The notes under the pieces are model-generated. The model saw nothing but the letters and a program-made list of their open reading frames with translations. It searched no databases and had not been told where the DNA came from. A DNA stretch of 53,251 bases from Flavobacteriales bacterium (lineage in GTDB: Bacteria > Bacteroidota > Bacteroidia > Flavobacteriales_D > Sanyastnellaceae): assembly GCA_027491215.1 (NCBI GenBank), contig JAIXWP010000019.1, forward strand, positions 1 through 53,251, read 5' to 3'. This document shows, piece by piece, positions 33,960 to 53,251 of this stretch; position 1 is the first letter of the stretch; each line of letters begins with the position of its first letter. The position numbers were made by a program, and so were the translations under genes.

Positions 33960-34724
33960 ATGAATTACCTAGATCAAATAGATCAACACAATGTGCCGAA
34001 GCATGTAGCCATCATCATGGATGGCAACGGTCGTTGGGCTAAAAGCCAAGGTAAAGAAAGAATATTCGGACATTTTAATGGTGTTGAAGCCGTTCGTGCT
34101 TCTTTAAAAGCGGCAACTCGCGCAGGTGTCAAATACCTCACTCTCTACGCTTTTTCTCTAGAAAATTGGAATAGACCAAAAGAAGAAGTGGACGCACTGA
34201 TGAATCTTCTTGTTCATACTATCATGAGCGAGATTGATGAATTGGATAAAAATGGTGTTCGACTTCAAACTATTGGAAATATTGAAAACCTTCCTTTGAG
34301 TTGCAGAGCAGAGCTCGAAAAAGGAATGGAGCGCACAAAACATCACACCACCATCAATCTCATTCTCGCATTGAGCTACAGTGCGCGTTGGGAAATTAAT
34401 CAAGCTTTGAGACAAATTGTGGCTTCAGGAATTTCAGAAAATGAAATTACCGATGAACTCATCTCTAAACACCTTACTACTGCGGCATTTCCTGATCCCG
34501 AGCTTCTTATTAGAACAAGCGGAGAACGTCGGTTGAGTAACTTTTTGCTATGGCAAATCGCCTATGCAGAGTTATATTTTACCGAAACCCTTTGGCCTGA
34601 TTTCAATGAAGAAGATTTTTATAAAGCCATTTGTGATTACCAGCAACGTGAAAGAAGATTTGGCAAAACTTCAGAACAGCTTGTGTCAACAGATATTAAT
34701 TCAACGACCGACACCAAGCTTTAG
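33960..34724 (+). CDS. uppS: Isoprenyl transferase (undecaprenyl diphosphate synthase)
   Basis: A 254-residue cis-prenyltransferase that makes the C55 lipid carrier for peptidoglycan and surface polysaccharide. The signature HVAIIMDGNGRWAKSQGKERIFGH (about residues 15-38, catalytic Asp) and the late RTSGERRLSNFLLWQIAYAELYF are intact. bamA starts 13 bases after its stop. The product supplies the carrier that the 6-19 kb polysaccharide locus probably needs. Confidence 0.97.
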   Translation: MNYLDQIDQHNVPKHVAIIMDGNGRWAKSQGKERIFGHFNGVEAVRASLKAATRAGVKYLTLYAFSLENWNRPKEEVDALMNLLVHTIMSEIDELDKNGVRLQTIGNIENLPLSCRAELEKGMERTKHHTTINLILALSYSARWEINQALRQIVASGISENEITDELISKHLTTAAFPDPELLIRTSGERRLSNFLLWQIAYAELYFTETLWPDFNEEDFYKAICDYQQRERRFGKTSEQLVSTDINSTTDTKL

Positions 34725-34737
34725 TCTTAAACATTCC

Positions 34738-37299: not shown

Positions 37300-37321
37300 T
37301 AATTGATTTAACGAAAGCCTC

Positions 37322-37978
37322 ATGAAAAAAACACTTTCATTACTTGCTATCCTCTTCACTTTCGCTGGATTTGTTCAAGCGCAGAAGTTTGGATATGTAG
37401 ATTCAAAATACATTTTGAGTCACGTTCCAGAATATCAGCAAGCACAAGCACAAATCAATAAGTTGAGTGCTGATTGGCAAAAAGAAATTGAATCTAAATA
37501 CACCACGATTGAAAAGCTTGAGGCAGCATATCAAGCAGAAAAGATACTGTTGACGGAGGATATGCGCAAAAAACGCGAAGAAGAAATCGCAGCTAAAAAA
37601 CAAGAGGCGAAAGAGCTTCAAAAATCAAAGTTCGGAGTAGGTGGAGAGCTTTTTCAGAAGAGAGAAGAGTTGATTAAACCCATACAAGACCAGATTTATA
37701 CAGCTATCAAAGATGTTGCAAGCCAAAGCGCATTGATGGTTGTTTTTGATAAGGCAAACCAAAGCAACATGCTTTACACCAATCCGAAACACGATATCAG
37801 TGATAAGGTATTACGCAAGATGGGCTTAAAGCCGGGTGATGTGTTAGAAGGAGAAGAAGAGGATGAAGAAGAAGGTGGTGAAAAACCAGGTGGTTCAGCC
37901 CCAGATCCAAAAGGTGCGGGTGGCGGAAAAGAGCCACGTGGTGGTGAAAAATCACCTGCAAAAGGTGGTGGTAAGTAA
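37322..37978 (+). CDS. OmpH/Skp family periplasmic chaperone, with Gly/Lys-rich tail
   Basis: A 218-residue protein with a signal peptide of about 20 residues (KTLSLLAILFTFAGFVQAQ) and the Skp start KFGYVDSKYILSHVPEYQQAQ. The middle is a long coiled coil (EIESKYTTIEKLEAAYQAEK, RKKREEEIAAKKQEAKEL). It ends with an acidic then Gly/Pro/Lys-rich tail (about 178-218: EGEEEDEEEGGEKPGG and onward) that the second Skp copy lacks. Skp carries unfolded outer-membrane proteins to BamA, fitting its place after bamA. Confidence 0.93.
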   Translation: MKKTLSLLAILFTFAGFVQAQKFGYVDSKYILSHVPEYQQAQAQINKLSADWQKEIESKYTTIEKLEAAYQAEKILLTEDMRKKREEEIAAKKQEAKELQKSKFGVGGELFQKREELIKPIQDQIYTAIKDVASQSALMVVFDKANQSNMLYTNPKHDISDKVLRKMGLKPGDVLEGEEEDEEEGGEKPGGSAPDPKGAGGGKEPRGGEKSPAKGGGK

Positions 37979-38056
37979 GTACGTTGTATTTTGGCCTCGC
38001 TTTTGCTTTGGGCGGTGAGGTTCCAAAGAAAATAAACCAGATTAACATTAACAGAA

Positions 38057-38587
38057 ATGAAAAGAGTATTGATTTTAACCGTGGCTATATTGTCTTCAGT
38101 GGTAGCATTTAGTCAAAAGATTGGTCATATCGACCGTGCTGCATTGATCAAGGCGATGCCAGAGACAGCAGATGTAGAAAAGAAATTGGCGGATATTCAA
38201 CAAGAGTATGTTACAGCATATCAGAATTTCGAGCAAGAGTACAACACATTGATACAAGAATATCAGGCTAATGAGAAGACTTGGCCTGCTGCTATTAAAG
38301 ACAGCAAAATCAAGGCAATTCAAGCGAAAGAACAACAATTAGGAGAGTTTGAGCAAAGTGCTTCAACGGATGTACAAGCACAACAACAGACACTTTATCA
38401 ACCAATCATCGATAAAGCTGCAAAGGCCATCGAAGAGGTAGCTAAAGAAAATGGATTCACTTACATTATTGATAGTGGATTAGGCGTATTGCTTTACATG
38501 GGTGGTGAAGATATCTTGGAATTGACCAAGAAGAAATTGCAGATTCCTGCAACTCCAGCGACACCGGCTCCAGCACCAAAAAAATAA
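38057..38587 (+). CDS. OmpH/Skp family periplasmic chaperone
   Basis: A 176-residue second Skp copy with a signal peptide of about 19 residues (ILTVAILSSVVAFSQ), the start KIGHIDRAALIKAMPETADVEKKL, coiled coil EYVTAYQNFEQEYNTLIQEYQ, and a conserved end ENGFTYIIDSGLGVLLYMGGEDI. A Pro/Ala-rich tail (ATPATPAPAPKK) follows. Two adjacent Skp genes after bamA are typical of Bacteroidota. A strong terminator follows. Confidence 0.94.
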   Translation: MKRVLILTVAILSSVVAFSQKIGHIDRAALIKAMPETADVEKKLADIQQEYVTAYQNFEQEYNTLIQEYQANEKTWPAAIKDSKIKAIQAKEQQLGEFEQSASTDVQAQQQTLYQPIIDKAAKAIEEVAKENGFTYIIDSGLGVLLYMGGEDILELTKKKLQIPATPATPAPAPKK

Positions 38588-38605
38588 TTGAATAATATTT
38601 CAAGG

Positions 38606-38640
38606 AAATCCCCGCCCAATGGCGGGGATTTCTTTTTTTT
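38606..38640 (+). terminator. Terminator after the second skp gene, next to the murI start
   Basis: An 11-bp perfect stem, AAATCCCCGCC (38606-38616) with GGCGGGGATTT (38621-38631), a CAAT loop and an eight-T run. The murI ATG begins at 38647. Confidence 0.93.
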
Positions 38641-38646
38641 GTAGGA

Positions 38647-39459
38647 ATGAAAAATATTGATCGACCTATTGGCATTTTTGACTCCGGCATTGGAGGTTTG
38701 ACAGTGGCGAGTGCCATTAAGAAATTATTGCCAAATGAATCGTTCATTTATTTCGGAGACACAGCTCACTTGCCCTACGGAGATAAGTCTCCCGAGAGCA
38801 TTCGCCATTACTCGGCTCGCATTGCAGCTTTTTTATTAGAAAAAAAATGCAAGGCCGTTGTGATTGCGTGTAATACAGCCTCTGCGCACGCATTTAAGAC
38901 CGTTCAGGATATCTGTGGTCCAAAGATTCCTGTAATCAATGTGGTTGACCCTGTGGCTCGCTACACGGCAGATCATTACAACAATTGTAAGGTGGGAGTA
39001 ATTGGCACAAAGGGAACGATTCAAACAAGAATATACGTGAATCGAATTGAGAAGTTGAATCCCAGTTTAAAAGTGTTATCGAATGCGACTCCCCTACTCG
39101 CTCCAATGATTGAAGAAGGCTTCTTCAATAATAGCATTTCACAAACTGTTATTGATAGTTACTTATCCAAAAGAACATTCAGTGGCATTCAAGCGCTAAT
39201 CCTCGGTTGTACGCACTACCCTTTGATTAAAAAAGAAGTTGAATCTTTTTACAAGAAAAAAATCGAAATCATCGACAGTGCTGGAGTTGTTGCAAATGAG
39301 GTGAAAAACATTTTGACCGATTCAAAACTCATTCAAACGCAAGAACTGGAAGCGAAATATTCCTTCTTCATTTCCGACTTTACCGAGTCGTTTGAAAAGA
39401 GTACTAAGACATTTTTTAAAGAAAAAATCAAGCTTGAAGAAGCCCGAATTTGGGATTAG
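38647..39459 (+). CDS. murI: Glutamate racemase
   Basis: A 270-residue enzyme supplying D-glutamate for peptidoglycan. The two catalytic cysteines are in VIACNTASAHA (about residue 75) and LILGCTHYPLIK (about 187), with the early IFDSGIGGLTV. It starts only 6 bases after the T-run of a strong terminator, so either read-through or a start site inside the hairpin region must serve it. Its 3' end overlaps the convergent lspA gene by 4 bases. Confidence 0.97.
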   Translation: MKNIDRPIGIFDSGIGGLTVASAIKKLLPNESFIYFGDTAHLPYGDKSPESIRHYSARIAAFLLEKKCKAVVIACNTASAHAFKTVQDICGPKIPVINVVDPVARYTADHYNNCKVGVIGTKGTIQTRIYVNRIEKLNPSLKVLSNATPLLAPMIEEGFFNNSISQTVIDSYLSKRTFSGIQALILGCTHYPLIKKEVESFYKKKIEIIDSAGVVANEVKNILTDSKLIQTQELEAKYSFFISDFTESFEKSTKTFFKEKIKLEEARIWD

Positions 39460-40163
39460 ACAGCGGGTTGCTGAGGAGCAGACTCTTCATCCTTGTGAAG
39501 AATAGTCACTGTGGTTTCTTCCAATTTTTCACCACCATCTTCTTGAGTGTCATTTTCTTCTTTATCATCCTCTTTGAAGAATCTTTTCTGGAAAAGAAGA
39601 ATAAGGATGATACCTACTGTTATAGCTGAATCTGCGACATTGAATACAGGAGGAAAAAGCTCTATCGTCTTTCCATTCCAAGTGATTGTTTTATTGAAAT
39701 GCAGCATATCAACTACATTTCCCATCAGAGGGGCTGCATACTGCCCTCCTATTTCAGCTTTGCCATGGTACATCGTGTAATCATCTAGAAGTTCGTCATA
39801 TCGAGAACCTCTATCGAAAATAACACCATATACTGCGCTATCTATAATGTTTCCAAGTGCGCCAGCAACGATGAGAGAAACGCAAATGATATAGCCTGTT
39901 CTAGCTTTTTCTTTGATTATTTTCCACAGATACCAAGCGATACCTGTAACAACGATAATTCGGAAAATACTAAGAGCAAGTTTACCTCCATTTCCTGGAA
40001 TCATCCAGCCGAAGGCCATACCTGGGTTTTCTACAAATTGAAGATCGAACCACCCTTTTAGGACAGTCACACTTTCTCCATAATTGAAATTGAGTTTAAC
40101 CCAAATTTTAAGAATTTGGTCAATTAGGAGTACACCGATAATGGTGAAGAGCGCCTTCTTCAA
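39456..40163 (-). CDS. lspA: Lipoprotein signal peptidase (signal peptidase II)
   Basis: A 235-residue inner-membrane aspartic protease that cleaves lipoprotein signal peptides. The catalytic aspartates lie in GALGNIIDSAVYG (about residue 111) and VFNVADSAITVG (about 177), with four membrane helices. The C-terminal ~40 residues (FKEDDKEENDTQEDGG and onward) are an unusual charged tail beyond the fourth helix. It follows the DksA-like gene by 24 bases on the same strand. Confidence 0.95.
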   Translation of the reverse strand: MKKALFTIIGVLLIDQILKIWVKLNFNYGESVTVLKGWFDLQFVENPGMAFGWMIPGNGGKLALSIFRIIVVTGIAWYLWKIIKEKARTGYIICVSLIVAGALGNIIDSAVYGVIFDRGSRYDELLDDYTMYHGKAEIGGQYAAPLMGNVVDMLHFNKTITWNGKTIELFPPVFNVADSAITVGIILILLFQKRFFKEDDKEENDTQEDGGEKLEETTVTILHKDEESAPQQPAV

Positions 40164-40187
40164 CTTGAAAAATTATTTCATGAAAAA

Positions 40188-40598
40188 TTATGACTGCATG
40201 TTCTTCGCCTCAATGCTAAGCGTAGCGTGAGGTACAAGACGCAATCTTTCTTTTGGAATCAATTTACCCGTTACACGGCAAACACCGTATGTGCGGTTTT
40301 TAATTCTCAAAAGAGCATTTTCTAGCGCTTGGATGAACTTTTCCTGACGAGCAGCCAACTGAGCGACTTCTTCGCGGCTCATTGTATCGCTTCCATCTTC
40401 CATCATTTTGAAAGTAGGTGAAGTATCATCCGTGCTATTATCGCCTTCATGAGAAAGGGATTGCTTAAGTTCATCTAAATCTGATTTAGCTTGAGCCAAT
40501 TTAACATGGATCAACTCTTGAAACTCTTTCAAATCAGCATCAGAGTAGCGAGTAGCTTCTGCCTTTGCTGGTGTTTCTGTTTCTTTTTTCTTTGCCAT
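40188..40598 (-). CDS. TraR/DksA-family zinc-finger-like protein
   Basis: A 136-residue protein with a long N-terminal coiled coil (SDADLKEFQELIHVKLAQAK to RQEKFIQALENALLRI) and a C-terminal DksA-like module, YGVCRVTGKLIPKERLRLVPHATLS. Only one cysteine of the zinc site remains (C-x-x-T instead of C-x-x-C), as in many Bacteroidota members, so it may not bind zinc. DksA-type proteins act in the RNA polymerase secondary channel; the target here is unknown. It lies 3 bases after ileS. Confidence 0.9.
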   Translation of the reverse strand: MAKKKETETPAKAEATRYSDADLKEFQELIHVKLAQAKSDLDELKQSLSHEGDNSTDDTSPTFKMMEDGSDTMSREEVAQLAARQEKFIQALENALLRIKNRTYGVCRVTGKLIPKERLRLVPHATLSIEAKNMQS

Positions 40599-40601
40599 AA
40601 T

Positions 40602-43600
40602 CTACATTTTTTGAATTTGGATTAACGTTGTTAATCCGTCTTCTATTTCAACGTTATGTCCTTCCGTTAGGTTTTGCGCAATTTCTAGGCTTCCTGCCAA
40701 AACTTGCGCGCGAATATATTCTGAATTCGAGTTAATTGCATCATTTAGGGCCTCATTCGCCAAAATCTTCACACTTATTTTATCTGTCACCTCAAAACCA
40801 GAGTCTTTGCGGAGATTTTGAATTCTATTAACGAATTCTCGAGCGATACCTTCCTTCCTCAACTCAGGAGTTAATGTTACATCCAATGCAACTGTTAGTG
40901 CGCCCATATTGGCAACCTTCCAACCTGGAATATCCACTGGTATGATTTCCACATCCTCTTCAATCAATTCAATTCCACCATCAGTTGTATTAAAAACGTA
41001 CGATCCTTTAGATTCAATTGAGTGGATTATTTCTTTATCGTTCGCTGCAGCAAAAGCTTGAAGATCTTTCATGTGCTTTCCACACTTTCTTCCGAGCGTT
41101 TTAAAGTTCAATTTCAACTGCTTTACAATCTGAGCTTGTGACTCATCAACGAACTCCAATGTTTTAACATTTACTTCAGCAGTGATCAAATCGGCCACTA
41201 ATTGAATACGTTGTTTCATTGCCTCATCAAGAATTGGAATTCTGATCGCAGCTAGTGGTTGTCTCACTCGTAAATTTTCCTTCTTACGAATAGAGAGAAT
41301 CATTGATGAAATCTTCTGCGCCAACTCCATTCTCATCTCCAACTCTGAATCGATTGCATTCGCGTTGTGCGCCTTCAAAATAGAAAGATGCACACTTTGA
41401 GTTTGTCCATTCAAATTTCTATATAACCACTCACCGAAGAATGGTGCGAAGGGGCTCATGAGTTGAGAAATGCTCTGCAAACATTCAAATAAAGTATCGT
41501 ATGCAGCGCGCTTGTCATCTGTAACTTCTCCGTGCCAGAATCTCTTTCTTGCTAAACGAACATACCAATTTGAAAGATGTTCATCGACGAATTCCTCGAT
41601 TGCTCGGGCAGCAGGTGTTGGGTTAAAATCTTCGAGGTATTCATTCACTTGTTTGATCAAATTGTTCAAACGTGAAATGATCCAACGATCTAGCTCACTT
41701 CTTTTCTCAAGAGGTATAACGGTATCTGCAGTGTGTTGATACTTGTCAATATTTGCATAGATCGTAAAGAAGCCATAAGTATTGAAAAGTGTACCAAAGA
41801 ATTTACGTTGTACTTCTGCGATTCCATCGACATCAAACTTGAGGTTATCCCAAGGTTGAGCGTTGGTGATCATGTACCATCTTGTAGCGTCTGGGCCAAA
41901 TTTCCCGATGGTTTCGAATGGATCAACTGCATTGCCTAATCGCTTAGACATTTTATTTCCATTCTTATCTAGTACGAGTCCGTTTGAGATCACATTTTTA
42001 TATGCAACACTATCGAAGCACATCGTAGATATTGCATGCAAGGTATAGAACCAACCACGCGTTTGATCAACCCCTTCAGCAATGAAGTCAGCAGGGAAAT
42101 TCGAACGATTATCGATCAATTCTTTGTTCTCAAATGGATAGTGAAGTTGCGCATAAGGCATTGCTCCGCTGTCAAACCACACGTCAATCAAATCAGATTC
42201 ACGAGTCATTTTTTCCCCATTAGAAGAAACTAAAATGAAATCATCAACATAAGGTTTATGCAAATCAAAGAGATTGTAATTTTCAACCGAATGATCATTC
42301 GGTACAAAATTCTCAAATGGATTTGATGACATAAAACCTGCAGCAACAGATTTTTCTATTTCTACTTTAAGCTGTTCGACACTAGAAATACATATTTGTT
42401 CTGTACCACTTTCATTGCGCCAGATAGGGAGAGGAATTCCCCAAAAGCGCGAGCGCGAGAGGTTCCAGTCGTTTGCATTTTCCAACCAATTACCGAAACG
42501 TCCTGTACCCGTAGATTCAGGTCTCCAGCCAATGGTGTTATTGAGCTCTACCATTCTATCTTTCACGGCAGTGACCTTCACAAACCACGAATCTAGAGGA
42601 TAGTACAATACAGGCTTATCTGTTCTCCAACAGTGTGGATAGTTGTGATCGTATTTTTCAATTTTAAAAGCTCTATTCTCGAGTTTCAATTTTAGCGCGA
42701 TGATTTCATCAGCGCTCATGAATTTATCGAGCGAAGGAATGATTGACTTGAGAGCTTCTTTTTGTTTTGGCAATTCAGCAGCTTTTTCTTCATCCGAATA
42801 ATATGCTTCTTTCACAAAAATTCCTTCTAGAGGGAAAAGAGCATCTTTTATTTCAGGAGTGAATCGACCTGTTTTATCAACTAGTGTAAGTGATCCGATT
42901 CCGTTTTGTTTTGCAACACGAAAGTCATCTGCACCAAAGCTAGGAGCGATGTGAACGATACCTGTACCATCTTCTGTGGTAACGAAGTCACCAAGAATAA
43001 CTCTGAATGCATCACCATCTTCAGGTTGTGCAAATGGCAGAAGCTGGTGGTATTTCAAATCTTTAAAGTCTGCTCCTCTATATTCCTTCAATACTTTGAA
43101 AGGAATATTTTTATCTCCTGCTTTATAGTCTGCTAATTGCAGTTCAGCATTTTTTTCAGAAAAGTATTTTCCAAAAAGATTTTTAGCTAGGACTACAAAA
43201 ATTTCTTCGTGCGTGTATTGATTGAAAGATTGCACAGCGACATACTCGATATCCTTACCAACAGCTAGCGCAGTATTTGACGGTAGTGTCCACGGAGTGG
43301 TGGTCCAAGCGAGGAAGAATGTTTTTCCACTTGTTGGGAGCCCTAGTTGTGCGGCACTTTCAGTTGTCATCTCGAACTGAGCGATGACAGAAGTATCTTT
43401 TACATTCTTGTAGGTACCAGGCTGGTTTAGTTCGTGCGAACTAAGACCTGTTCCAGCGGCAGGCGAATAAGGCTGGATAGTAAATCCTTTGTAAAGAAGA
43501 TTTTTAGAATAAAGCTCACCTAGCAACCACCAAACACTTTCAATGTATTTGTTATCATAAGTGATATATGGGTGTTTCATGTCGACCCAATAGCCCATCA

Positions 43601-44015
43601 CTTTGGTAAGTTCTTCCCATTTGTCGGTGTACTTCATCACTTCAGATCTACAAGCTTTGTTATAGTCCTCAACAGTGATTTTTTTGCCGATATCTTCTTT
43701 TTTAATTCCTAATGTTTTTTCCACAGCAAGCTCAATAGGAAGTCCGTGAGTATCCCATCCCGCTTTTCTTTTCACTTGCTTCCCTTTGATGGTATTGAAT
43801 CGACAGAACACATCCTTAAGAGTGCGTGCCATGACGTGGTGAATACCAGGCATGCCATTCGCGGAAGGAGGTCCTTCAAAAAAAACGAATGATGGGGCTC
43901 CCTCCCTTTCCGTCACACTCCTTTCGAAGATATTCTCTTCATTCCAGAAATTTTGAACTTCGTTCGCGATTTCTGGAAGGTTGAGCCCTTTATATTCTTT
44001 AAAACTCTGCGTCAT
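40602..44015 (-). CDS. ileS: Isoleucyl-tRNA synthetase, long eukaryote-like type
   Basis: A 1137-residue class I synthetase, started at ATG 44015 (MTQSFKEYKGLNLPEIANEV); a longer frame to 44093 adds 26 residues with no family match. The HIGH-region is GMPGIHHVMART, then AGWDTHGLPIELAVEK, and the second signature is KMSKRLGNAVDP. Insert and editing segments (TTPWTLPSNTALAVG) are present. The length and motifs suit the IleS2 branch, which includes mupirocin-tolerant enzymes. It is followed by dksA-like and lspA genes, a common Bacteroidota order. An exact 18-bp palindrome is inside. Confidence 0.96.
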   Translation of the reverse strand: MTQSFKEYKGLNLPEIANEVQNFWNEENIFERSVTEREGAPSFVFFEGPPSANGMPGIHHVMARTLKDVFCRFNTIKGKQVKRKAGWDTHGLPIELAVEKTLGIKKEDIGKKITVEDYNKACRSEVMKYTDKWEELTKVMGYWVDMKHPYITYDNKYIESVWWLLGELYSKNLLYKGFTIQPYSPAAGTGLSSHELNQPGTYKNVKDTSVIAQFEMTTESAAQLGLPTSGKTFFLAWTTTPWTLPSNTALAVGKDIEYVAVQSFNQYTHEEIFVVLAKNLFGKYFSEKNAELQLADYKAGDKNIPFKVLKEYRGADFKDLKYHQLLPFAQPEDGDAFRVILGDFVTTEDGTGIVHIAPSFGADDFRVAKQNGIGSLTLVDKTGRFTPEIKDALFPLEGIFVKEAYYSDEEKAAELPKQKEALKSIIPSLDKFMSADEIIALKLKLENRAFKIEKYDHNYPHCWRTDKPVLYYPLDSWFVKVTAVKDRMVELNNTIGWRPESTGTGRFGNWLENANDWNLSRSRFWGIPLPIWRNESGTEQICISSVEQLKVEIEKSVAAGFMSSNPFENFVPNDHSVENYNLFDLHKPYVDDFILVSSNGEKMTRESDLIDVWFDSGAMPYAQLHYPFENKELIDNRSNFPADFIAEGVDQTRGWFYTLHAISTMCFDSVAYKNVISNGLVLDKNGNKMSKRLGNAVDPFETIGKFGPDATRWYMITNAQPWDNLKFDVDGIAEVQRKFFGTLFNTYGFFTIYANIDKYQHTADTVIPLEKRSELDRWIISRLNNLIKQVNEYLEDFNPTPAARAIEEFVDEHLSNWYVRLARKRFWHGEVTDDKRAAYDTLFECLQSISQLMSPFAPFFGEWLYRNLNGQTQSVHLSILKAHNANAIDSELEMRMELAQKISSMILSIRKKENLRVRQPLAAIRIPILDEAMKQRIQLVADLITAEVNVKTLEFVDESQAQIVKQLKLNFKTLGRKCGKHMKDLQAFAAANDKEIIHSIESKGSYVFNTTDGGIELIEEDVEIIPVDIPGWKVANMGALTVALDVTLTPELRKEGIAREFVNRIQNLRKDSGFEVTDKISVKILANEALNDAINSNSEYIRAQVLAGSLEIAQNLTEGHNVEIEDGLTTLIQIQKM
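42286..42303. promoter_or_regulatory. 18-bp palindrome (exact copy 6), inside ileS
   Basis: ACCGAAT-GATC-ATTCGGT, perfect over all 18 bases including the centre. It encodes PNDHSV on the minus strand, in the same phase as copy 2 but a different peptide. Confidence 0.6.
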
Positions 44016-44354
44016 GTAATGATTTTTTAGGACGCGCGAAGATACGAAATGGCTTAATAAGGTGGCAGAGAATATTGACATGTTGATTATCAAGGTTCTA
44101 AAAAATCCTACTAGTCAACAATCTGCTATTCATAACCCTTTTACAACACCTTATGTACCTATTTATGTATTTTATTGCTTTACATCCGAAAACGTGTGGT
44201 TTCATTCGCACATACCGATGAGGGATGAATCGACACTTATTCAACGAATTAATAGTGAGATATCCCTCAGTGTTTTAGTTATTAATAAAACACTGATTAT
44301 AAATACCTTAAGGGCATCCCCCTTATTTCAGCCAAAACCAAAAAGTTCATCAAA
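44016..44354. other. 339-base intergenic region with nested hairpins
   Basis: This separates divergent ileS and the giant gene. On the minus strand TATCTTCG (44037-44044) is a possible -7 box for ileS. From 44219 to 44295 there are two adjoining inverted repeats: TGAGGGAT (44219-44226) with ATCCCTCA (44262-44269), and CAGTGTTTTA (44268-44277) with TAAAACACTG (44286-44295). I find no convincing TANNTTTG box for the giant gene and no tRNA. Confidence 0.6.
44268..44295. promoter_or_regulatory. 10-bp perfect inverted repeat upstream of the giant gene
   Basis: CAGTGTTTTA, 8-base loop, TAAAACACTG. It is not followed by a T-run in either direction, so a simple terminator is unlikely. It may be an operator or part of a leader RNA, 59 bases before the ATG at 44355. 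Confidence 0.45.
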
Positions 44355-47300
44355 ATGAACCTGACACGTATTCTAGCTCTTGCACTTAGAAGTATCCTTT
44401 TTCTAGTGTTGGTGGTTTCCACCAGTAGACTTTCCGCGCAGCTCAATGTGAATGAGAACGCAAATAATGCAACCATGAGCAACTTGATTCAAGGCTCGGG
44501 TGTAATCATTAGCAACTTCACTGTTATCTCAGGAACTAACCAGCAAGTTTCATCCTTTACCAATACTAATGCTGTTGGCAATCCCTTGAATATTCCCAAC
44601 GGATTGTTGCTTTCGACAGGGCGAGGCACCCAGGCAGTTGGTCCGAATAACAACGTTGGAAGTTCCGTTGGTAATGGCATTAACTATGTTGACCCAGACA
44701 TCACTGCCATTCAGGGTAACGCTACCAATGACGTGGTAGTAGTAGAATTTGACGTGATACCTCTTTGTGATACAATGCAGTTGACTTTCGTATTTGGCTC
44801 GGAAGAATATGCAGAGTATACGTGTGCGGATTTCAATGATGCCTTTGGATTCTTTGTGAGTGGTCCGGGAATTTCTGGTCCTTATTTAAATGGTGCTGAA
44901 AATTTTGCTCGTCTACCTGACGGCACTCCGGTTTCTATTGGGACAGTAAACCAAGGGTCAGCTGGGGCTTTTGGAGACCCTGCCAACTGTGCGAGTTTTG
45001 CTAACTCAGCCAGCTACTTAGACAATACGGGTAATGCATTCTTACAAGCTGATGGATTAACCGTTAGATTAAGAGCAAGTGGCGTGGTTCAGCCATGTCA
45101 AGTTTATCACGTGAAGTGCGTACTAGCGGATGCTGGTGATGACGCTTATGATTCTTTTGTTTGGTTGGATGGATTTACATGTCAAGGACAAAACGTAAAC
45201 ATTTTCCCAACTACTGCAGGTGGATCTGCGGTGGAAGGTTGTGGAAGTCTGACATATAATGCTGTGCGGGCAGGTGACTTGAGTGTTCCATTGACCGTAG
45301 CTTTGAGTTATTCTGGAACTGCCACTTATGGGGTTGACTATAACAACTTGCCCACTGTGTTGAGTTATACCTCTGGTCAAAGCTTGATTCCATTTACGAT
45401 TCTTCCAACGAATGATGGTATTGTGGAGGGTACTGAGACACTGATTATCACCTCCACGTATAACGTCTGTTCGACGAGTTACTCCCAAGTATTCAATTTC
45501 CAAATACAAGAACCCCAGTTAACGCTGGACTGCTCGCCTCTGGTTTTTAATACCGGGCCCGGCACGTGTCAAGCTGTAGTGACCTTCGCGAATCCTACAG
45601 CAACGACCAATTGCGGAAATGCTACAGTAACAAGAACTGATGGGCTCCCGATTACATCGGGCATGTCACTTTCTCCTGGTACTTATACTTTGAGCTATTC
45701 CGCAACTACCGATGGTTCAGTTCCATTAACAACAACTTGCAATAGAACTTTAACGGTTGTAGATAATATTAACCCAACCTTTACTTGTCCTGCTGATGTC
45801 ACTGTAAACGCTGGTGGTGCATGTTCTGCAGTAGTGACAGTTCCCGCATTGACTGCAACAGACAATTGTGGTATTGCGTCCATCACGAACTCTTTTAATG
45901 GAACTAATAATGCGAGTGGCACCTATTTCGGTGGACCAACAAATGTTGTTTGGACCATCACCGATGTTAATGGAAATGTAAGTACCTGTACACAGACCAT
46001 AACAGTCACAAATACAAGTGCTGGTCGTGCTTTTGCAATGGTGGTTCCACCAACAGCATCGTGCGCATTTGTTTCAGGGCCAGCAATATTCGGCACCCTG
46101 ACAAATATGACTTGGAATGGAATTAATCTCACCAAGACAAACAATAATAACGTAACCACTGCTGATGCATTTTCAACCAATGCCGTTTATAATAATGGTT
46201 ACGTTTACGCTATCACGCCGGCAGGTAACCAGCAGAAATTTATAGGTCTGAGTGCTGCCAATGATGGACCAACTGGATGGAATGGTATCGACTATGCTAT
46301 CTATACTAGAAATAATAACACTCTAAGAATTTATGAAAACGGCACTCTTATAGTTAACAATGCTGGTAGTTATGCTACAGGTGATACCTTGAGAGTCATG
46401 CGTGATAATGGAGTTATTCGTTACATGCGAAACAGCACCGTTATTTATACCTCAACTGTAGCTCCAGCCGCAGGGCCTTACTACGCAGATATGACTATTG
46501 AAACCAATGGTACGCAATGGTTAGAAGTGACAATTGTAAACCCCTCATGTGGATCTTTTCAAGCAGGTGCCATAGGATATACAGGTCCATATTCTTATCA
46601 GTGGTTCCGCAATGGAGTTGCAATTTCTGGTGCTACTTCGCAGACTTACTCAGCCTCATTACTCAACCTGAATGATATCTATTCCGTTCAGGTATCGAAT
46701 GCTACATGTACATTAAACTCAAATGATCTCACTGTAATACAAAAAACTGCTGCGAGCTGCACAAATGCAGCTTTAACATTTACTGCCGCAGGTGCATCCT
46801 GCTCGGCAAATGCCACGGTACCAAACCCTGCAGTGATAGGGGGTTGCTCTTCTGTTGTCATTACGAACAGTTTTAATGGAGGTACTGCGAATGCCAATGG
46901 TGTATACAATATTGGTAATACTCCTGTGACCTTTACACTTTCATCTGGATGCGGAGAAGTGTTAGGCACATGTATTACGACAGTAACTGTTGTAGATAAT
47001 ATCGCTCCAACCATTACCTGTCCTGGAAATACCTCATATAATTTTTCCGCTGGCTGTACGAATGTACTTCCTGATTTCTTGCCAAGTATAACTGCAACGG
47101 ATAACTGCACTGGCTCTCCAGTTACATTAACACAATCACCGGCATCCGGAACGATTGTAACCGGACCTGTGACTGTTACTATCACAGCTGCTGATCAAAA
47201 CTTTAATACTAGCACATGCACCTTCACTGCGACCGCTGTGGATAATGCTGGACCATCATTCACCTGTCCTAGTAATACCAACCTTAGTATTAATCCCACA

Positions 47301-50300
47301 ACATGTACTGCATCGTTACCAAACTATGCATCTTCAATTACGGCTACAGACAATTGCAGTCCATCAAGTTCAATAACAATAACACAAAGTCCTGCTGCTG
47401 GAACAAACATTACTTCTGCTACGACTATCACGATAACCGCTACCGATGGATCTGGTAATATCAGTACCTGTACTTTTGTAGTTACTCCTGTTGATACAAC
47501 TCCTCCAACATTCACTTGTCCTGCGAATATTTCAGTGAATGCAGCAACAGGATTATGCACTGCGCCAGTCACCTATACAGTTTCTGCGACAGACGCTTGT
47601 AACAATTGTCCTACGACCATTGCTAATTTTACCTTAATAGGAACATTTGGCGGTCACAGCTATTTCGTTTCTAATGCTGGAGCAAACTTCACCACTGCGA
47701 ATGCAGCATGCGTGAGTGCAGGAGGTTATCTGGCAGCAATTGGTTCAGCAGCTGAAAACACATTTGTAAGAACTTATATCGATGCTCAGAATTATAATGC
47801 GTGGATTGGATATAACGATGCAACAACTGAGGGAAGCTTCGTTTGGACCAATGGTGAACCAAACGTTTACTCCAATTGGGAGACAGGATCTCCCTCCACT
47901 GGAGCCAATACAGACGATGCTGTCAGAATGGAGGAAGATGGAGAGTGGGACGATAGACCTCTCAGTAATACCGAGCGTTATATTCTCGAACTCGACTGTA
48001 CACCATTTACAGTCACTCCAGTTCTAACTGCTGGATTAACGAGTGGAAGCAACTTCCCAGCTGGTACAACAACAGTCACTTACACAGCAGCCGATGCTGT
48101 AGGTAATACTTCGACATGTTCATTTACAGTAACAGTAACCGATACTACTAATCCTAGCATCACATGTGGTCCAAACGTCACAGCGACTACAGGTGCTGGT
48201 TCTTGCAGTGCTGCAGTTACGTTGACTGCACCGATGAATATTAACTCTATTACATCCGGTTGCTTTGCTCTTCCAGCATCAGGTGCATGCAGTGGTGGAA
48301 ATGGTGCTGCAACCTCAGGCATTACAATTAATGCGGGTCAGACTTTTTGGTATTCGGCAACGGGAACATTTGCAAATATCACATTGAACGGCGGAACGCT
48401 TAGAATATGTGGAAACCTCACTCTAACCAATATCAATTTTACATCTGGCACAATTGCCATTGAGCAAGGAGGAACGTTAACTATCAATGGTTCTGGAACA
48501 CTCAATCTAAATGGAAACAGTTCGATTATAAATAGAGGCACGCTAAATATTAATAGAAGTGTAACACTTCAAAATGCCAATAACTTAATTGGAAATGCTA
48601 TCCCATCTGCAGTTATCAATATGAATGGTGGCAGCTATACTTTAACATTAAATAGCGCAACTTCAAGATTTGTAAACTTCGGTTCTTCTAATATCAGAAG
48701 CATAGTAATTCAAGGAGCTACAAATGGTGTTATATGTCTTGGTTATGGTAGTACTTCTGAATTTGGAACTGTAACTAATAATACTGCAAATTCTGTCAAC
48801 GCGCCAGATGGAATTGCTTGCTTTAAAATTAATACTAGTGCTACTTTAAATAGTGCTTTGACAAACACTGCCAACGTAAATGTTTGTCAGGCTCCAGCCG
48901 CAACAATTACAGGAAGTTATGGAAGTGCAACAGTAAATACAAATTGTACAGCTTGCACAAGTGTGCCCGTATACTCTGACAACTGCGGAATAGCATCAAT
49001 TACGAATAGCTTCAATGGTACTAGTAATGCCAGTGGTAACTACCCTGTTGGAACTACAACAGTGACCTGGACCGTCACCGATGTGAACGGTAACATTTCA
49101 ACATGCTCTCAAACTGTAACAGTTACAGATAATATTGCGCCTACAATTACTTGTCCTGCGAATCAGACATTGACACTTGGATCATCGTGCACAGCTGCTT
49201 TACCTAATTACACTTCATTGGCAATAGCTGCTGACAACTGCGGTACACCAACGATTACACAATCTCCTGCTGCTGGAACAACAGTTTCTTTAGTAGGTGC
49301 AATGACTGTGACGTTGACAGCAACAGATGCAGCTGGGAATATTTCGACTTGTAATTTCACTGTTAATAAAGTTGACACCTCTGCGCCTTCAATAACGTGC
49401 CCATCTAATATTACAACAACAGCTACTCCTGGTTTATGTGGTGCAGCAGTTAACTATACTGTGACTGCAACAGACAACTGTGATTGTTTTGCTCAAACTG
49501 GTGCTATCACTGGATTTACTTTAATCGGAACTTTGAATGGTCATAGTTATTATAGATCAACTGCGTCTGCCCTTTGGCCAGCAGCAAATACAGCAGCTCA
49601 AGCACTAGGTGCCCATTTGGTAACAATAAGTAGCGCTGCAGAAAATGCATTGCTTGGTGGAATTGGATTGCATTGGGGTGGTATGACAGACCAAGCAGTT
49701 GAAGGAACTTGGGTTTGGATTAATGGTGAACCAGTAACCTACACTTCATGGACAGCTGGTGAGCCAAACAATACTGGCAACCAAGATTACCTTTTATTAA
49801 ACTGGAGCGGATTAAACTGGGATGACCAAGGAACGACAACAGCTGGGTCATATCCTTATGTTATCGAATTTGATTGTGTAGCTCTGAATCTTGTTAGTGG
49901 TCTTGCAACCGGAAGTTTCTTCCCAGTTGGCACTACCACTGTAACCTATAATGCAACAGATGCTTCTGGAAATTCTTCGAGCAATTGTTCGTTTACTGTA
50001 ACAGTAACAGAAAGCGCTGCTCCAACCATTACATGTCCTGCAAACATTACAGCAAATGTTGCAGCTGGAACTTGCGCTGCAACAGTGTCATATACAACAC
50101 CAACCGCAGTAGACAACTGCGGAAACTGCAGCACACCTCCTACTCTAGCTGGATTCACCTCATTAGGAACATATAACAATAACGCATACTATCTATCGAA
50201 TGCAACAGCAACTTGGACAGCTGCTAATACAGCAGCAGCCGCTACAGGTGGTTACTTGGTTGCTATAAACGACGCAGCAGAAAATACATTTGTGCTAAAT

Positions 50301-53251
50301 GCTGTAACAACTACAAACGGATCATTTGTTTCTTATTGGACAGGATTAAATGACGTAGCCACTGAAGGCACTTATGTTTGGTCAAACGGCCAACCTAATA
50401 CATATACTAACTGGAGTGCGGGACAACCTGACAATGCGGGAGGTGCAGAAGACTGTGTTCAAGTTGTCGTTGCTGGAGTTTGGAATGACTTACCACCGAC
50501 TAGTAGTTTGCGATATGTGCTTGAATATCCTTGTATCCCTGTTGTTCGAACAGCAGGACCTGCATCTGGAGGAAGTTTCCCTGTTGGTGTAACTACTGTT
50601 AGTTATAGCGCTACAGATGGAAGTGGAAATTCTAGCTCATGCAATTTTACTGTAACAGTAGTAGACAATATTGTTCCGACAATCAGCTGCCCTGCTAATA
50701 TCACGGGCACTGCAGGAGCGGCATGTACGGCTTCTGTTGTAACAACGAATCCAACCACAGCAGATAACTGCGGAGTTACGCTATTGACTTGGGCAATGAC
50801 TGGAGCGACAATTGCGACGTCACCTGCAACTGGAATTAATAACGTTGGCACATATACGTTCAATAATGGTGTTACCACAGTAACTTACACTGTTCGTGAT
50901 GCTGCGAACAATAGTGCGACTTGTTCATTTACGGTAACAATTACTGATACTGCTGTTCCAACAATTTCTTGTCCTGCGAATATTATTACAACCACAGGAG
51001 CAACTTGTAATGCATCTGTTGTAACTCCTAACCCAACAACAGCAGACAACTGCGGAGTGAATAGATTAACATGGGCAATGACAGGGGCTACAATTGCAAC
51101 TTCAGCTGCAACGGGAATTAATAACGTTGGTACATATACATTCAATAGTGGTGTGACAACGGTGACATATACTGTAAGAGATGCAGCAGGCAATATTGCG
51201 ACATGCGCTTTCACAGTAACAGTAACTGATCCGATTCTCCCTACAATTTCTTGTCCTGCAAACATTGCAGTTGCGGGAGGTGCATCTTGCACAGCATCAG
51301 TTGTGACAACTGCACCTACAACATCCGACAACTGTGGAATAACAGTGCGCACTTGGGCAATGACCGGTGCGACCACGGCAACTTCCGCAGCTACTGGAAT
51401 TAATAGCGTTGGAACCTACACATTCAATTCTGGTGTTACAACTGTAACGTATACTGTTCAAGATGCTGCTGGAAATTCAGCCAATTGCTCGTTCACTGTA
51501 ACAGTAACTGACACTACTATTCCTACAATTACTTGTCCTGGAAACATGGCAATTAATTCAAATACTATATTCTTCGAAAACTTTGAAACAGGTGCTACGG
51601 GATGGAGCAACAACACTACAGAGACTGATGCAGCTACAACGCGCATACTTGGAAGATTCGGCGGTAGCGCTGGTGCTCAAGCAGTGAGCAAAACATTTGT
51701 GATGCCAGGCACCTTAAGTAAAACCGTATCCTTTGACCTTTATAGAATAGATTCATGGGATGGAGAAGCATTCAGAATATTTATAAATGATGTTCAAGTG
51801 GCCTCTTACAATCCAGCTGTAACAACAAGTGGAACAGTTGGAAGTGTATCATGGACATCCACTGTAATTGGAACAACCACACCTAATGCTTTCAGTGCAA
51901 CATGGGCAGACCAATTGGTTAGAGTTGTTTTGACTATCAATGATGGAAATACGAATTGTAAAATTGGTTTTGGTAGCTTACTTGATCAAACAATACCTGA
52001 CGAATCTTATGGTATTGACAATTTTACCATTAATTATTCTGGCATTACAACTTGTGCATCTACCCTTGCGATAGCAAATCCAACAACTGCAGACAACTGC
52101 GGCGTTACACAATTAACATGGGCAATGACGGGGGCTACAACAGCTACGTCACCTGCAACTGGAGTTAACAATATTGGCACTTACACTTTCAATACTGGAG
52201 TGACTACTGTTACATACATTGTAAGAGATGCCGCGAATAATTCTGCGACTTGTTCATTCACAGTAACAGTAACAGACAATATTCTTCCGACAATAACTTG
52301 TCCTGCGAACCAAACACTTGTACTAAACAGCTCTTGTACTGGAACTATTCCTTCATATACTTCACTTGCCACTGCAACAGATGGATGTCCGGGAACTGTT
52401 ACTATCACTCAGTCACCTGCAGCTGGAACAACTGTTACTGGTGTTGGTACAACGACAGTGACACTCACTGCGACGGACGCGGCAGGTAACACTGCAACAT
52501 GCACATTCACTGTAACACGAGTTGATAATACACCGCCAACAGTTACCTGTCCTGCGAATCAAACATTGACTTTAAATAGTTCATGCACTGCTACTCTTCC
52601 TAACTATACAACACTTGCCACAGCTACTGACGGATGCACAGGTACAGTTACTAGAACACAATCTCCTGCATCAGGCACAGTATTAACAGGAGTTGGTACA
52701 ACTACTGTTACCATTACTGCAACAGATGCAAATGGTAATACTGCAACTTGCACATTTACTGTTACACGAGTTGATAATACTCCGCCTGCGATTACTTGTC
52801 CTTCGAACCAAACGCTTGTATTAAATAGCTCTTGTACTGGAACTATTCCATCATACACTTCACTTGCTACGGCAACAGATGGTTGTGCGGGAACTGTTGC
52901 TATCACTCAGTCACCAGCAGCTGGAACTACAGTAACGGGTGTTGGTACAACAACTGTTACACTCACTGCGACAGACGCTGCGGGTAACACAGCAACTTGT
53001 ACATTCACTGTAACACGAGTTGACAATACACCTCCTGCGATTACTTGTCCTGCGAACCAAACGCTTGTATTAAATAGCTCTTGTACTGGAACCATTCCAT
53101 CATATACTTCACTTGCAACTGCAACTGATGGTTGTGCTGGAACGGTAACTATCACACAATCACCTGCAGCTGGTACTACAGTAACGGGCGTTGGTACAAC
53201 CACTGTTACACTCACTGCAACGGATGCTGCAGGTAACACTGCGACTTGTAC
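44355..53251 (+). CDS. Giant secreted HYR-repeat protein with inserted C-type-lectin-like domains (5' part)
   Basis: Open for 2965 codons and cut by the window end. Signal peptide about 1-29 (LALALRSILFLVLVVSTSRL). Then a choice-of-anchor L domain (about 35-260, VFGSEEYAEYTCADFNDAFG), a Calx-beta-like domain (about 292-390, VEGTETLIIT), and a long chain of HYR repeats (TCPAN, ATDNC, GTTTVTYTATD, STCTFTVTVTD). Inserts: a lectin-like plus Ig-like part (about 559-794), three C-type-lectin-like domains (about 1094-1215, 1723-1841, 1937-2060), a beta-helix-like stretch (about 1292-1535) and a jelly-roll-like part (about 2402-2563). The start is the only ATG with a signal peptide. Likely a cell-surface or released adhesin, perhaps exported by type IX secretion; the C-terminal sorting domain would be outside the window. 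Confidence 0.9.
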   Translation, partial: MNLTRILALALRSILFLVLVVSTSRLSAQLNVNENANNATMSNLIQGSGVIISNFTVISGTNQQVSSFTNTNAVGNPLNIPNGLLLSTGRGTQAVGPNNNVGSSVGNGINYVDPDITAIQGNATNDVVVVEFDVIPLCDTMQLTFVFGSEEYAEYTCADFNDAFGFFVSGPGISGPYLNGAENFARLPDGTPVSIGTVNQGSAGAFGDPANCASFANSASYLDNTGNAFLQADGLTVRLRASGVVQPCQVYHVKCVLADAGDDAYDSFVWLDGFTCQGQNVNIFPTTAGGSAVEGCGSLTYNAVRAGDLSVPLTVALSYSGTATYGVDYNNLPTVLSYTSGQSLIPFTILPTNDGIVEGTETLIITSTYNVCSTSYSQVFNFQIQEPQLTLDCSPLVFNTGPGTCQAVVTFANPTATTNCGNATVTRTDGLPITSGMSLSPGTYTLSYSATTDGSVPLTTTCNRTLTVVDNINPTFTCPADVTVNAGGACSAVVTVPALTATDNCGIASITNSFNGTNNASGTYFGGPTNVVWTITDVNGNVSTCTQTITVTNTSAGRAFAMVVPPTASCAFVSGPAIFGTLTNMTWNGINLTKTNNNNVTTADAFSTNAVYNNGYVYAITPAGNQQKFIGLSAANDGPTGWNGIDYAIYTRNNNTLRIYENGTLIVNNAGSYATGDTLRVMRDNGVIRYMRNSTVIYTSTVAPAAGPYYADMTIETNGTQWLEVTIVNPSCGSFQAGAIGYTGPYSYQWFRNGVAISGATSQTYSASLLNLNDIYSVQVSNATCTLNSNDLTVIQKTAASCTNAALTFTAAGASCSANATVPNPAVIGGCSSVVITNSFNGGTANANGVYNIGNTPVTFTLSSGCGEVLGTCITTVTVVDNIAPTITCPGNTSYNFSAGCTNVLPDFLPSITATDNCTGSPVTLTQSPASGTIVTGPVTVTITAADQNFNTSTCTFTATAVDNAGPSFTCPSNTNLSINPTTCTASLPNYASSITATDNCSPSSSITITQSPAAGTNITSATTITITATDGSGNISTCTFVVTPVDTTPPTFTCPANISVNAATGLCTAPVTYTVSATDACNNCPTTIANFTLIGTFGGHSYFVSNAGANFTTANAACVSAGGYLAAIGSAAENTFVRTYIDAQNYNAWIGYNDATTEGSFVWTNGEPNVYSNWETGSPSTGANTDDAVRMEEDGEWDDRPLSNTERYILELDCTPFTVTPVLTAGLTSGSNFPAGTTTVTYTAADAVGNTSTCSFTVTVTDTTNPSITCGPNVTATTGAGSCSAAVTLTAPMNINSITSGCFALPASGACSGGNGAATSGITINAGQTFWYSATGTFANITLNGGTLRICGNLTLTNINFTSGTIAIEQGGTLTINGSGTLNLNGNSSIINRGTLNINRSVTLQNANNLIGNAIPSAVINMNGGSYTLTLNSATSRFVNFGSSNIRSIVIQGATNGVICLGYGSTSEFGTVTNNTANSVNAPDGIACFKINTSATLNSALTNTANVNVCQAPAATITGSYGSATVNTNCTACTSVPVYSDNCGIASITNSFNGTSNASGNYPVGTTTVTWTVTDVNGNISTCSQTVTVTDNIAPTITCPANQTLTLGSSCTAALPNYTSLAIAADNCGTPTITQSPAAGTTVSLVGAMTVTLTATDAAGNISTCNFTVNKVDTSAPSITCPSNITTTATPGLCGAAVNYTVTATDNCDCFAQTGAITGFTLIGTLNGHSYYRSTASALWPAANTAAQALGAHLVTISSAAENALLGGIGLHWGGMTDQAVEGTWVWINGEPVTYTSWTAGEPNNTGNQDYLLLNWSGLNWDDQGTTTAGSYPYVIEFDCVALNLVSGLATGSFFPVGTTTVTYNATDASGNSSSNCSFTVTVTESAAPTITCPANITANVAAGTCAATVSYTTPTAVDNCGNCSTPPTLAGFTSLGTYNNNAYYLSNATATWTAANTAAAATGGYLVAINDAAENTFVLNAVTTTNGSFVSYWTGLNDVATEGTYVWSNGQPNTYTNWSAGQPDNAGGAEDCVQVVVAGVWNDLPPTSSLRYVLEYPCIPVVRTAGPASGGSFPVGVTTVSYSATDGSGNSSSCNFTVTVVDNIVPTISCPANITGTAGAACTASVVTTNPTTADNCGVTLLTWAMTGATIATSPATGINNVGTYTFNNGVTTVTYTVRDAANNSATCSFTVTITDTAVPTISCPANIITTTGATCNASVVTPNPTTADNCGVNRLTWAMTGATIATSAATGINNVGTYTFNSGVTTVTYTVRDAAGNIATCAFTVTVTDPILPTISCPANIAVAGGASCTASVVTTAPTTSDNCGITVRTWAMTGATTATSAATGINSVGTYTFNSGVTTVTYTVQDAAGNSANCSFTVTVTDTTIPTITCPGNMAINSNTIFFENFETGATGWSNNTTETDAATTRILGRFGGSAGAQAVSKTFVMPGTLSKTVSFDLYRIDSWDGEAFRIFINDVQVASYNPAVTTSGTVGSVSWTSTVIGTTTPNAFSATWADQLVRVVLTINDGNTNCKIGFGSLLDQTIPDESYGIDNFTINYSGITTCASTLAIANPTTADNCGVTQLTWAMTGATTATSPATGVNNIGTYTFNTGVTTVTYIVRDAANNSATCSFTVTVTDNILPTITCPANQTLVLNSSCTGTIPSYTSLATATDGCPGTVTITQSPAAGTTVTGVGTTTVTLTATDAAGNTATCTFTVTRVDNTPPTVTCPANQTLTLNSSCTATLPNYTTLATATDGCTGTVTRTQSPASGTVLTGVGTTTVTITATDANGNTATCTFTVTRVDNTPPAITCPSNQTLVLNSSCTGTIPSYTSLATATDGCAGTVAITQSPAAGTTVTGVGTTTVTLTATDAAGNTATCTFTVTRVDNTPPAITCPANQTLVLNSSCTGTIPSYTSLATATDGCAGTVTITQSPAAGTTVTGVGTTTVTLTATDAAGNTATC
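47634..47999 (+). other. C-type-lectin-like domain 1 of the giant protein
   Basis: HSYFVSNAGANFTTANAACV, GGYLAAIGSAAENTFV, NAWIGYNDATTEGSFVWTNG, then EWDDRPL and YILELDC. At the usual EPN/QPD site it has SPS (ETGSPSTGANTDDAV). Confidence 0.82.
49521..49877 (+). other. C-type-lectin-like domain 2 of the giant protein
   Basis: HSYYRSTASALWPAANTAAQ, GAHLVTISSAAENALL, EGTWVWINGEP, AGEPNNTGNQDYLLL, NWDDQ and YVIEFDC. EPN at the sugar site is the mannose-type motif of animal C-type lectins. Confidence 0.82.
50163..50534 (+). other. C-type-lectin-like domain 3 of the giant protein
   Basis: AYYLSNATATWTAANTAAAA, GGYLVAINDAAENTFV, YWTGLNDVATEGTYVWSNG, AGQPDNAGGAEDCVQV, VWNDLP and YVLEYPC. QPD at the sugar site is the galactose-type motif. 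Confidence 0.85.
50688..51533 (+). repeat. Tandem HYR repeat, 282-base (94-residue) period, three units
   Basis: The SCPAN cysteine codons fall at 50688, 50970, 51252 and 51534, exactly 282 bases apart. Units share LTWAMTGAT, ATGINNVGTYTFN and TTVTYTVRDAA. A fourth unit follows, split by the jelly-roll-like insert. Confidence 0.88.
52299..53251 (+). repeat. Tandem HYR repeat, 249-base (83-residue) period, running off the window
   Basis: TCPAN/TCPSN cysteine codons fall at 52299, 52548, 52797 and 53046, exactly 249 bases apart. The nucleotide identity between units is high (long runs such as TTAAATAGCTCTTGTACTGG), suggesting recent duplication or gene conversion. Confidence 0.9.

Follow-up and report, generated by a model that had tools for sequence, protein, structure and literature searches.

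The window, meaning the whole stretch of 53,251 nucleotides that was analysed, comes from a Flavobacteriales bacterium and ends in the gene for a giant surface adhesin. This gene (44355..53249, on the forward strand, as are all features of the adhesin described below) is the last on its contig (G000:C93) and runs open for 2,965 codons, without a stop, to the contig edge, so the protein has at least 2,965 amino acids and its C-terminus lies off the contig. Eight frames were scanned upstream (33960-44093), all with ordinary functions: isoleucyl-tRNA synthetase, a dksA-type zinc-finger protein, signal peptidase II, a racemase, two OmpH-like proteins, an Omp85 protein, and a prenyltransferase. Near the N-terminus of the adhesin lies a choice-of-anchor L domain (NF038133; 44475..45170; E 2.2e-54), and much of the remainder is made up of HYR domains, which Pfam recognises in 19 stretches (E 2.2e-132).

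Within this array, three HYR units are each interrupted by a C-type-lectin-like domain (CTLD). In unit 1, the N half of the HYR (47505..47600) runs to position 35 of our own HYR model and is followed by the CTLD insert with its neck (47601..48008) and by the C half (48009..48149), which both Pfam and our model recognise. Unit 2 consists of an N half (49383..49499), a CTLD insert (49500..49892), and a C half (49893..50018). Unit 3 adjoins it without a linker and again has an N half (50019..50123), a CTLD insert (50124..50534), and a C half (50535..50669); the halves of both units are supported by Pfam, our model, and AlphaFold2. The three units are not all in tandem, since an HYR interrupted by a G8-like domain (48147..49133) and one intact HYR (49134..49379), the internal reference in our first structure model, lie between units 1 and 2.

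The initial annotation of this DNA proposed that the HYR fold tolerates a domain in one loop. This holds for the loop occupied by the lectins and is too narrow for the protein as a whole, in which two more HYR loops hold inserts. The G8-like insert (48234-48968) follows model position 29, scores 22.3 bits, slightly under the cut-off of 22.9, and is predicted to resemble a beta-helix. Further along, an HYR (51516..52280) contains, after model position 17, a domain of 160 aa (51567-52046) that begins FFENFETGATGWSNN and has no Pfam match. Both inserts have counterparts in a locus seemingly from the same genus (L045), which carries the same series of intact HYR, CTLD-HYR, and G8-HYR. Elsewhere in the source genome, one more HYR is split, with a low score, by an insert of 266 aa (L010, G000:C103).

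Lectin domains inside HYR units

The three CTLDs match the Pfam family PF00059 (Lectin_C) with 65.3 bits (47682-47981), 35.8 bits (49575-49832), and 60.7 bits (50208-50519) against a cut-off of 22.6, and they are the only ones in the contigs of the source genome at E <= 0.001. Around each of them, the HYR profile of Pfam (81 positions; our own model has 82) breaks off at positions 37-40 and restarts at 44-46, and the two parts do not overlap. In unit 1 the parts are 47490-47597 (profile positions 1-37), which at 21.4 bits falls narrowly under the cut-off of 21.7, and 48024-48137 (44-81). In unit 2 they are 49371-49484 (1-39) and 49890-50006 (44-81), and in unit 3 they are 50019-50126 (5-40) and 50553-50660 (46-81). 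Pfam gives two partial HYRs per unit because its profile has no provision for insertions. Taken together, both flanks of a CTLD match one HYR profile (PF02494; also HYR_4C, PF23237) over all 81 positions of PF02494, and one flank alone gives a partial match.

Our own model, allowed one long insertion anywhere, put the junction after position 35 in unit 1, 41 in unit 2, and 36 in unit 3, always within the short loop that follows the “DNC” cysteine. Scored jointly, the halves reached 84.9, 83.2, and 100.3 bits in units 1 to 3, compared with a median of 71.8 for intact HYRs, and these joint scores are slightly flattering because the junction position was optimised. The ends of all three units lie at most two residues from the neighbouring HYRs, and each unit takes up one slot of the array. 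The domain families and the junctions are established by these matches, and the observation itself is confirmed: three CTLDs each interrupt one HYR of the adhesin. The flanking motifs that the initial annotation had read from the sequence hold broadly, with slight deviations in unit 2 (TGSFFPVG and SSNCSFTVTVTE) and unit 3 (SSCNFTVTVVD).

An AlphaFold2 model of the intact HYR with units 2 and 3 (model 1; 512 aa, 15 aligned rows) had a mean pLDDT of 86.6 and a pTM of 0.49. Units 2 and 3 each consist in this model of the first-half HYR strands, the CTLD after DNC, and the remaining HYR strands, and in the DSSP strings both split HYRs have the same strand pattern as the intact one. The DNC turn of the intact HYR (residues 34-36) lies between a short strand (31-33) and a strand at 40-44; in unit 2, the short strand is at 111-113, DNC ends at 116, and the HYR is re-entered as the strand 249-255. 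A second model, of an HYR, unit 1, and the G8-interrupted HYR (627 aa, 15 rows, pLDDT 76.7, pTM 0.41), gave unit 1 the same HYR-CTLD-HYR strand order. There the next HYR encloses a long series of short strands resembling a beta-helix, parts of which have a pLDDT <50, and the G8 unit had an aligned relative from L045 only. The outcome named beforehand as incompatible with an insertion, namely the lectin as a bead flanked on either side by a full HYR, was not seen.

The lectin fold is complete in the model. The unit 3 CTLD (residues 333-466 of model 1) superimposes on the lectican CTLD 1tdq_B with a Z score of 21.5 and 1.4 A over 123 residues, and sequence profile and fold agree in placing it in the CTLD family (PF00059). 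Structure searches with model 1 were uninformative on the HYR fold, since all of the top rows were CTLD-bearing chains, and no PDB match better than E 0.16 was found by sequence. Judging from the DSSP strings and the confidence values, the two HYR halves would pair with each other in three dimensions. At these pTM values the orientation of the domains is undefined in both models; the sideways display of the CTLD from the stalk that the initial annotation envisaged would fit a CTLD whose N and C ends are neighbours.

Nested units in other genomes

Relatives were collected in a scan with one genome per species, from which the best 80 of 192 relatives gave 79 loci; further samples covered 395 genomes of the phylum, 114 of the same family, and 299 of the same order. 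Across the loci there were 107 CTLDs after the removal of exact copies, with at least three truncated copies still included. Nested CTLDs at HYR positions 34-43, with scores of at least 45 bits, numbered 42 in 25 loci, including the three of the window. Thus, the insertions that the initial annotation suggested seeking in other Bacteroidota do occur, and the arrangement is conserved in relatives. The bearers among the named records of the scan are filed under Bacteroidota (Flavobacteriales, Saprospiraceae, Chitinophagaceae, and unplaced), with the exception of one record filed under Alphaproteobacteria (L047). In that record the nested units are on a 5.6-kb contig of a metagenome-assembled genome; the contig may have been mis-binned and stem from Flavobacteriales, or a transfer may have taken place. 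The only other CTLDs above 45 bits are those of L062, which uses another HYR loop, and L159, which is cut by a contig end; the rest score at most 43. The CTLD version of the adhesin is uncommon, since full-length matches at E <= 1e-50 were found in 6 of the 114 genomes of the family and only in the source genome itself in the phylum sample, and the next best full-length match in the order sample (G594) had an E value of 1.3e-50.

Alignment A3 replaced A2, in which single-unit tails were misplaced. In a tree of 32 units, unit 2 groups with the unit at 425 of L045 (97/89), unit 3 has a weaker grouping with that at 1338 of L048 (90/65), and unit 1 has no resolved position. Units 1 to 3 look like old paralogues. 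The initial annotation stressed that the insertion point is the same in all three. The loop is indeed the same, and this does not imply three insertions: a single CTLD insertion followed by duplication possibly produced the CTLD-HYR units. The CTLD of L062 (aa 142-278) lies in the HYR loop after position 8, so CTLDs have entered the HYR in at least two places. To account for this CTLD and for the other domains found in the DNC slot, further independent insertions, or the exchange of an existing insert, have to be assumed.

The DNC slot is not reserved for lectins. The scan yielded 79 split HYRs, or 66 after the subtraction of 13 copies of the window’s units in overlapping loci (the near-copies L032/L033 and L087/L110 were kept). 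Of these, 53 are split at positions 35-43, comprising all 32 CTLD units and 21 of the 34 others, a share that is biased upward because the two patterns of the genome scan were derived from the query and one of them spans the DNC slot. We scanned 18 of these 21 non-CTLD inserts with Pfam. Laminin_G_3 was found in four (L048 twice, L069, and L087), CBM_4_9 in one (L057), P_proprotein in one (L121), and a propeller-like DUF4394/DUF6923 stretch in one (L092). Weak matches under the cut-off were obtained in three (L087, L064, and L099), and eight of the 18 had no Pfam match at E <= 0.05.

Probable pairing of the halves and predicted ligands of the lectins

Whether the two flanks of a CTLD belong together can be assessed from sequence. 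Of 641 aligned intact HYRs, 635 were free of gaps at the cysteine positions 7 and 72, in the first and last strands; 538 of these had both cysteines, 91 had neither, and six had a single one (two and four). Across the insert of the 66 split units, 59 had both, seven had neither, and none had only one. Yet the cysteine 7 of the previous unit agreed about as well with the cysteine 72 of the split unit (33 both, 4 neither, 0 single), the next unit’s cysteine 72 disagreed in 6 of 37 cases, and whole proteins tend to have or to lack both cysteines. Consequently, we dropped the cysteine rule as proof of pairing after this neighbour control, keep it as mild support for pairing across the insert, and added a test with swapped halves. 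In this test, a coupling model trained on intact HYRs compares a unit’s own halves with halves swapped inside the same protein. For intact HYRs held out by protein, the true halves were preferred in 4260 of 5034 comparisons. For units split at the DNC loop, own halves were preferred in 20 of 27 same-protein pairs (p 0.019), and for CTLD units in 13 of 18 (p 0.10). Two of the three pairs in the window prefer their true halves, and the pair of unit 1 and unit 3 prefers the swap. The cysteine and coupling tests are not independent of each other.

These results bear on two other readings of the array. In a circular permutation, a single permuted HYR would be built from the C half of a unit together with the N half of the following one, leaving the lectins as beads; this would accommodate the direct abutment of units 2 and 3 and the seven of 27 coupling pairs that favour swapped halves. 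It is at odds with the majority of those pairs, with the ordinary HYR strand order in both AlphaFold2 models, and with split units that stand between intact HYRs (L048 1641, L057 444, L063 184 and 1337), where the N half has no alternative partner because intact HYRs flank it on both sides; we consider it very improbable. Similarly little credence can be given to a bead on a string, with the CTLD between two degenerate partial HYRs that fold by themselves or serve as linkers. Single halves do match HYR in our own model (31-43 bits for N halves and 48-55 bits for C halves), as this reading would have it. Against it, the halves in the window are complementary and their profile positions never overlap, each of the cysteines 7, 35, and 72 is conserved in 31 of the 32 aligned CTLD units, and CTLDs that do look like beads (L038, L145, and L149) occur in different surroundings. 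Profile matches, array register, half coupling, and two AlphaFold2 models support the claim of the initial annotation that a CTLD sits in the same HYR loop in all three units.

A third alternative accepts the nesting and takes the CTLDs for protein-binding or purely structural modules rather than sugar lectins. CTLDs often bind proteins, and calcium site 2 of sugar-binding C-type lectins consists of EPN or QPD plus WND. Unit 3 (QPD/WND) fits this and unit 2 (EPN/WDD) nearly does; unit 1 has SPS and WDD at these positions and does not, and the SPS of unit 1 and the WDD of units 1 and 2 speak for a role other than sugar binding. The wider set points the other way. Among the 42 nested CTLDs, 20 have EPN, 10 QPN, 9 QPD, and 3 another triplet (in L060 the pattern chose an adjacent triplet; by eye, the motif there is QPG); W-x-D is present in all 42, as WND in 28. 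That 39 of 42 carry EPN, QPD, or QPN and that W-x-D is invariant suggests selection on calcium site 2, and we regard a general lack of sugar binding as rather unlikely, though a good deal more plausible than the two readings above. In C-type lectins, EPN directs binding to mannose/glucose/fucose-type sugars and QPD to galactose/GalNAc-type sugars. By these motif rules, unit 2 should be a lectin of the first type and unit 3 of the second, and unit 1 would bind something outside the sugar rules, or no sugar.

The inserts share their fold with known C-type lectins (PF00059; lectican 1tdq, mannose receptor, Endo180), and units 2 and 3 also share the calcium-site motifs. In the mannose receptor family, tandem CTLDs are beads. 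Here, in contrast, the CTLD is inside another domain, and most carry a pair of neck cysteines outside the core, one a short way past DNC and the other immediately following the last strand of the CTLD. Both are present in 32 of the 42 nested CTLDs, neither in nine, and one case is mixed. The first 32 units had shown 24 with both and eight with neither, and the pair as a perfect rule was given up when the wider set brought this one exception. On supported branches of the tree the pair amounts to a single independent change. This pattern suggests that the two cysteines probably form a disulfide at the base of the lectin in most nested CTLDs.

Secretion and the split-domain plan

Eleven nested-CTLD proteins have a complete C-terminus (L050, L052, L055, L056, L057, L058, L059, L144, L154, L156, and L164), and every one of them bears a type IX sorting domain above the NCBIfam cut-off, ten TIGR04183 (type A) and one TIGR04131 (type B, L164). 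The scores of L154 and L156 (26.0 and 26.5) pass the NCBIfam cut-off of 23 narrowly and lie under that of Pfam. The L164 protein, from G594, combines SprB repeats with its type B domain, which may hint at a link to gliding adhesins. In the source genome, a 960-aa HYR frame at the end of another contig (L009, G000:C1) starts part-way through an HYR, at the edge of that contig, and terminates in a type B sorting domain (TIGR04131, 46.9 bits, cut-off 35). It may be the missing end of the adhesin gene; an exact overlap of 11-400 bases joining the contig ends was looked for and not found. RTX repeat or type I signal families were not found by Pfam at E <= 1 in the 2,965 amino acids that precede the off-contig C-terminus. 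The signals in relatives and in this candidate end suggest that the adhesin of the window is secreted by the type IX route.

We consider it highly probable that the protein is a long secreted adhesin with an HYR stalk in which split HYRs each project a complete CTLD from the DNC loop. The stalk would consist of Ig-like HYR domains joined end to end. In some of them the HYR chain would halt in the short loop that follows the DNC cysteine, build a complete CTLD whose ends lie side by side, and return to complete the HYR, and the neck cysteine pair would staple the base of most lectins. The axis of the stalk would remain unbroken, with the calcium/sugar site of each lectin facing away from it, and one stalk could hold several glycans through differing lectin heads. 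Adhesion would then be the function of the protein.

The general plan has been described. In the main texts of two papers on RTX adhesins, including AhLap of Aeromonas hydrophila, FrhA of Vibrio cholerae, and MpIBP of M. primoryensis, discontinuous Ig-like split domains project ligand-binding domains (CBM, SBD, PA14, and PBD) from the stalk; their N and C ends lie next to each other, and the part most distant from the stalk is the binding site (PMC12077191, PMC10865825). Sequence and AlphaFold2 models agree with this plan for the adhesin of the window, which, like the RTX proteins as presented there, is long and has a discontinuous Ig-like stalk domain from which another, putatively ligand-binding domain emerges. 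It differs in several respects. The RTX adhesins treated in those texts belong to Gammaproteobacteria and carry a type I secretion signal, whereas the bearers here are Bacteroidota with type IX signals in relatives; and in the present case the stalk domain is a cysteine-bearing HYR that projects a CTLD, and sequence profiles reveal the split. The main texts of PMC12077191 and PMC10865825 do not mention C-type lectin, Bacteroid, or HYR, and our literature searches, whose coverage left out most subscription journals, found no report of HYR-CTLD nesting. The statement of the initial annotation that no described protein has this plan is thus uncontradicted for HYR and CTLD and does not extend to split domains as such: the HYR/type IX variant is new, and the plan is known from RTX adhesins.

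The same plan may be more widespread in these bacteria. In L160 and L169, from the same bacterial family, all 11 CTLDs lie between “ICxGES” and “WSTG” stretches and, judged by pattern only, likewise interrupt an Ig-like stalk domain, but this scaffold is not HYR. We lean towards the view that the HYR arrays of Bacteroidota serve generally as a split-domain chassis, with the DNC loop as a plug-in site for numerous unrelated kinds of binding domain (CTLD, laminin-G/concanavalin, CBM, propeller-like, and unknown ones), further loops in use, and a second Ig-like stalk family that evolved the same plan in the same bacteria. If this is true, the content of the DNC loop would provide a sequence-only listing of the heads with which type IX adhesins throughout the phylum bind their ligands, and many such heads would be domains without a Pfam match.

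For the adhesin described here, the finding extends the split-domain plan from RTX adhesins to HYR adhesins of Bacteroidota with type IX sorting signals. As a split HYR is recognisable from sequence, it marks the position and identity of ligand-binding heads as well as the boundaries of constructs. With EPN and QPD heads on one stalk, a multi-specific lectin is predicted.
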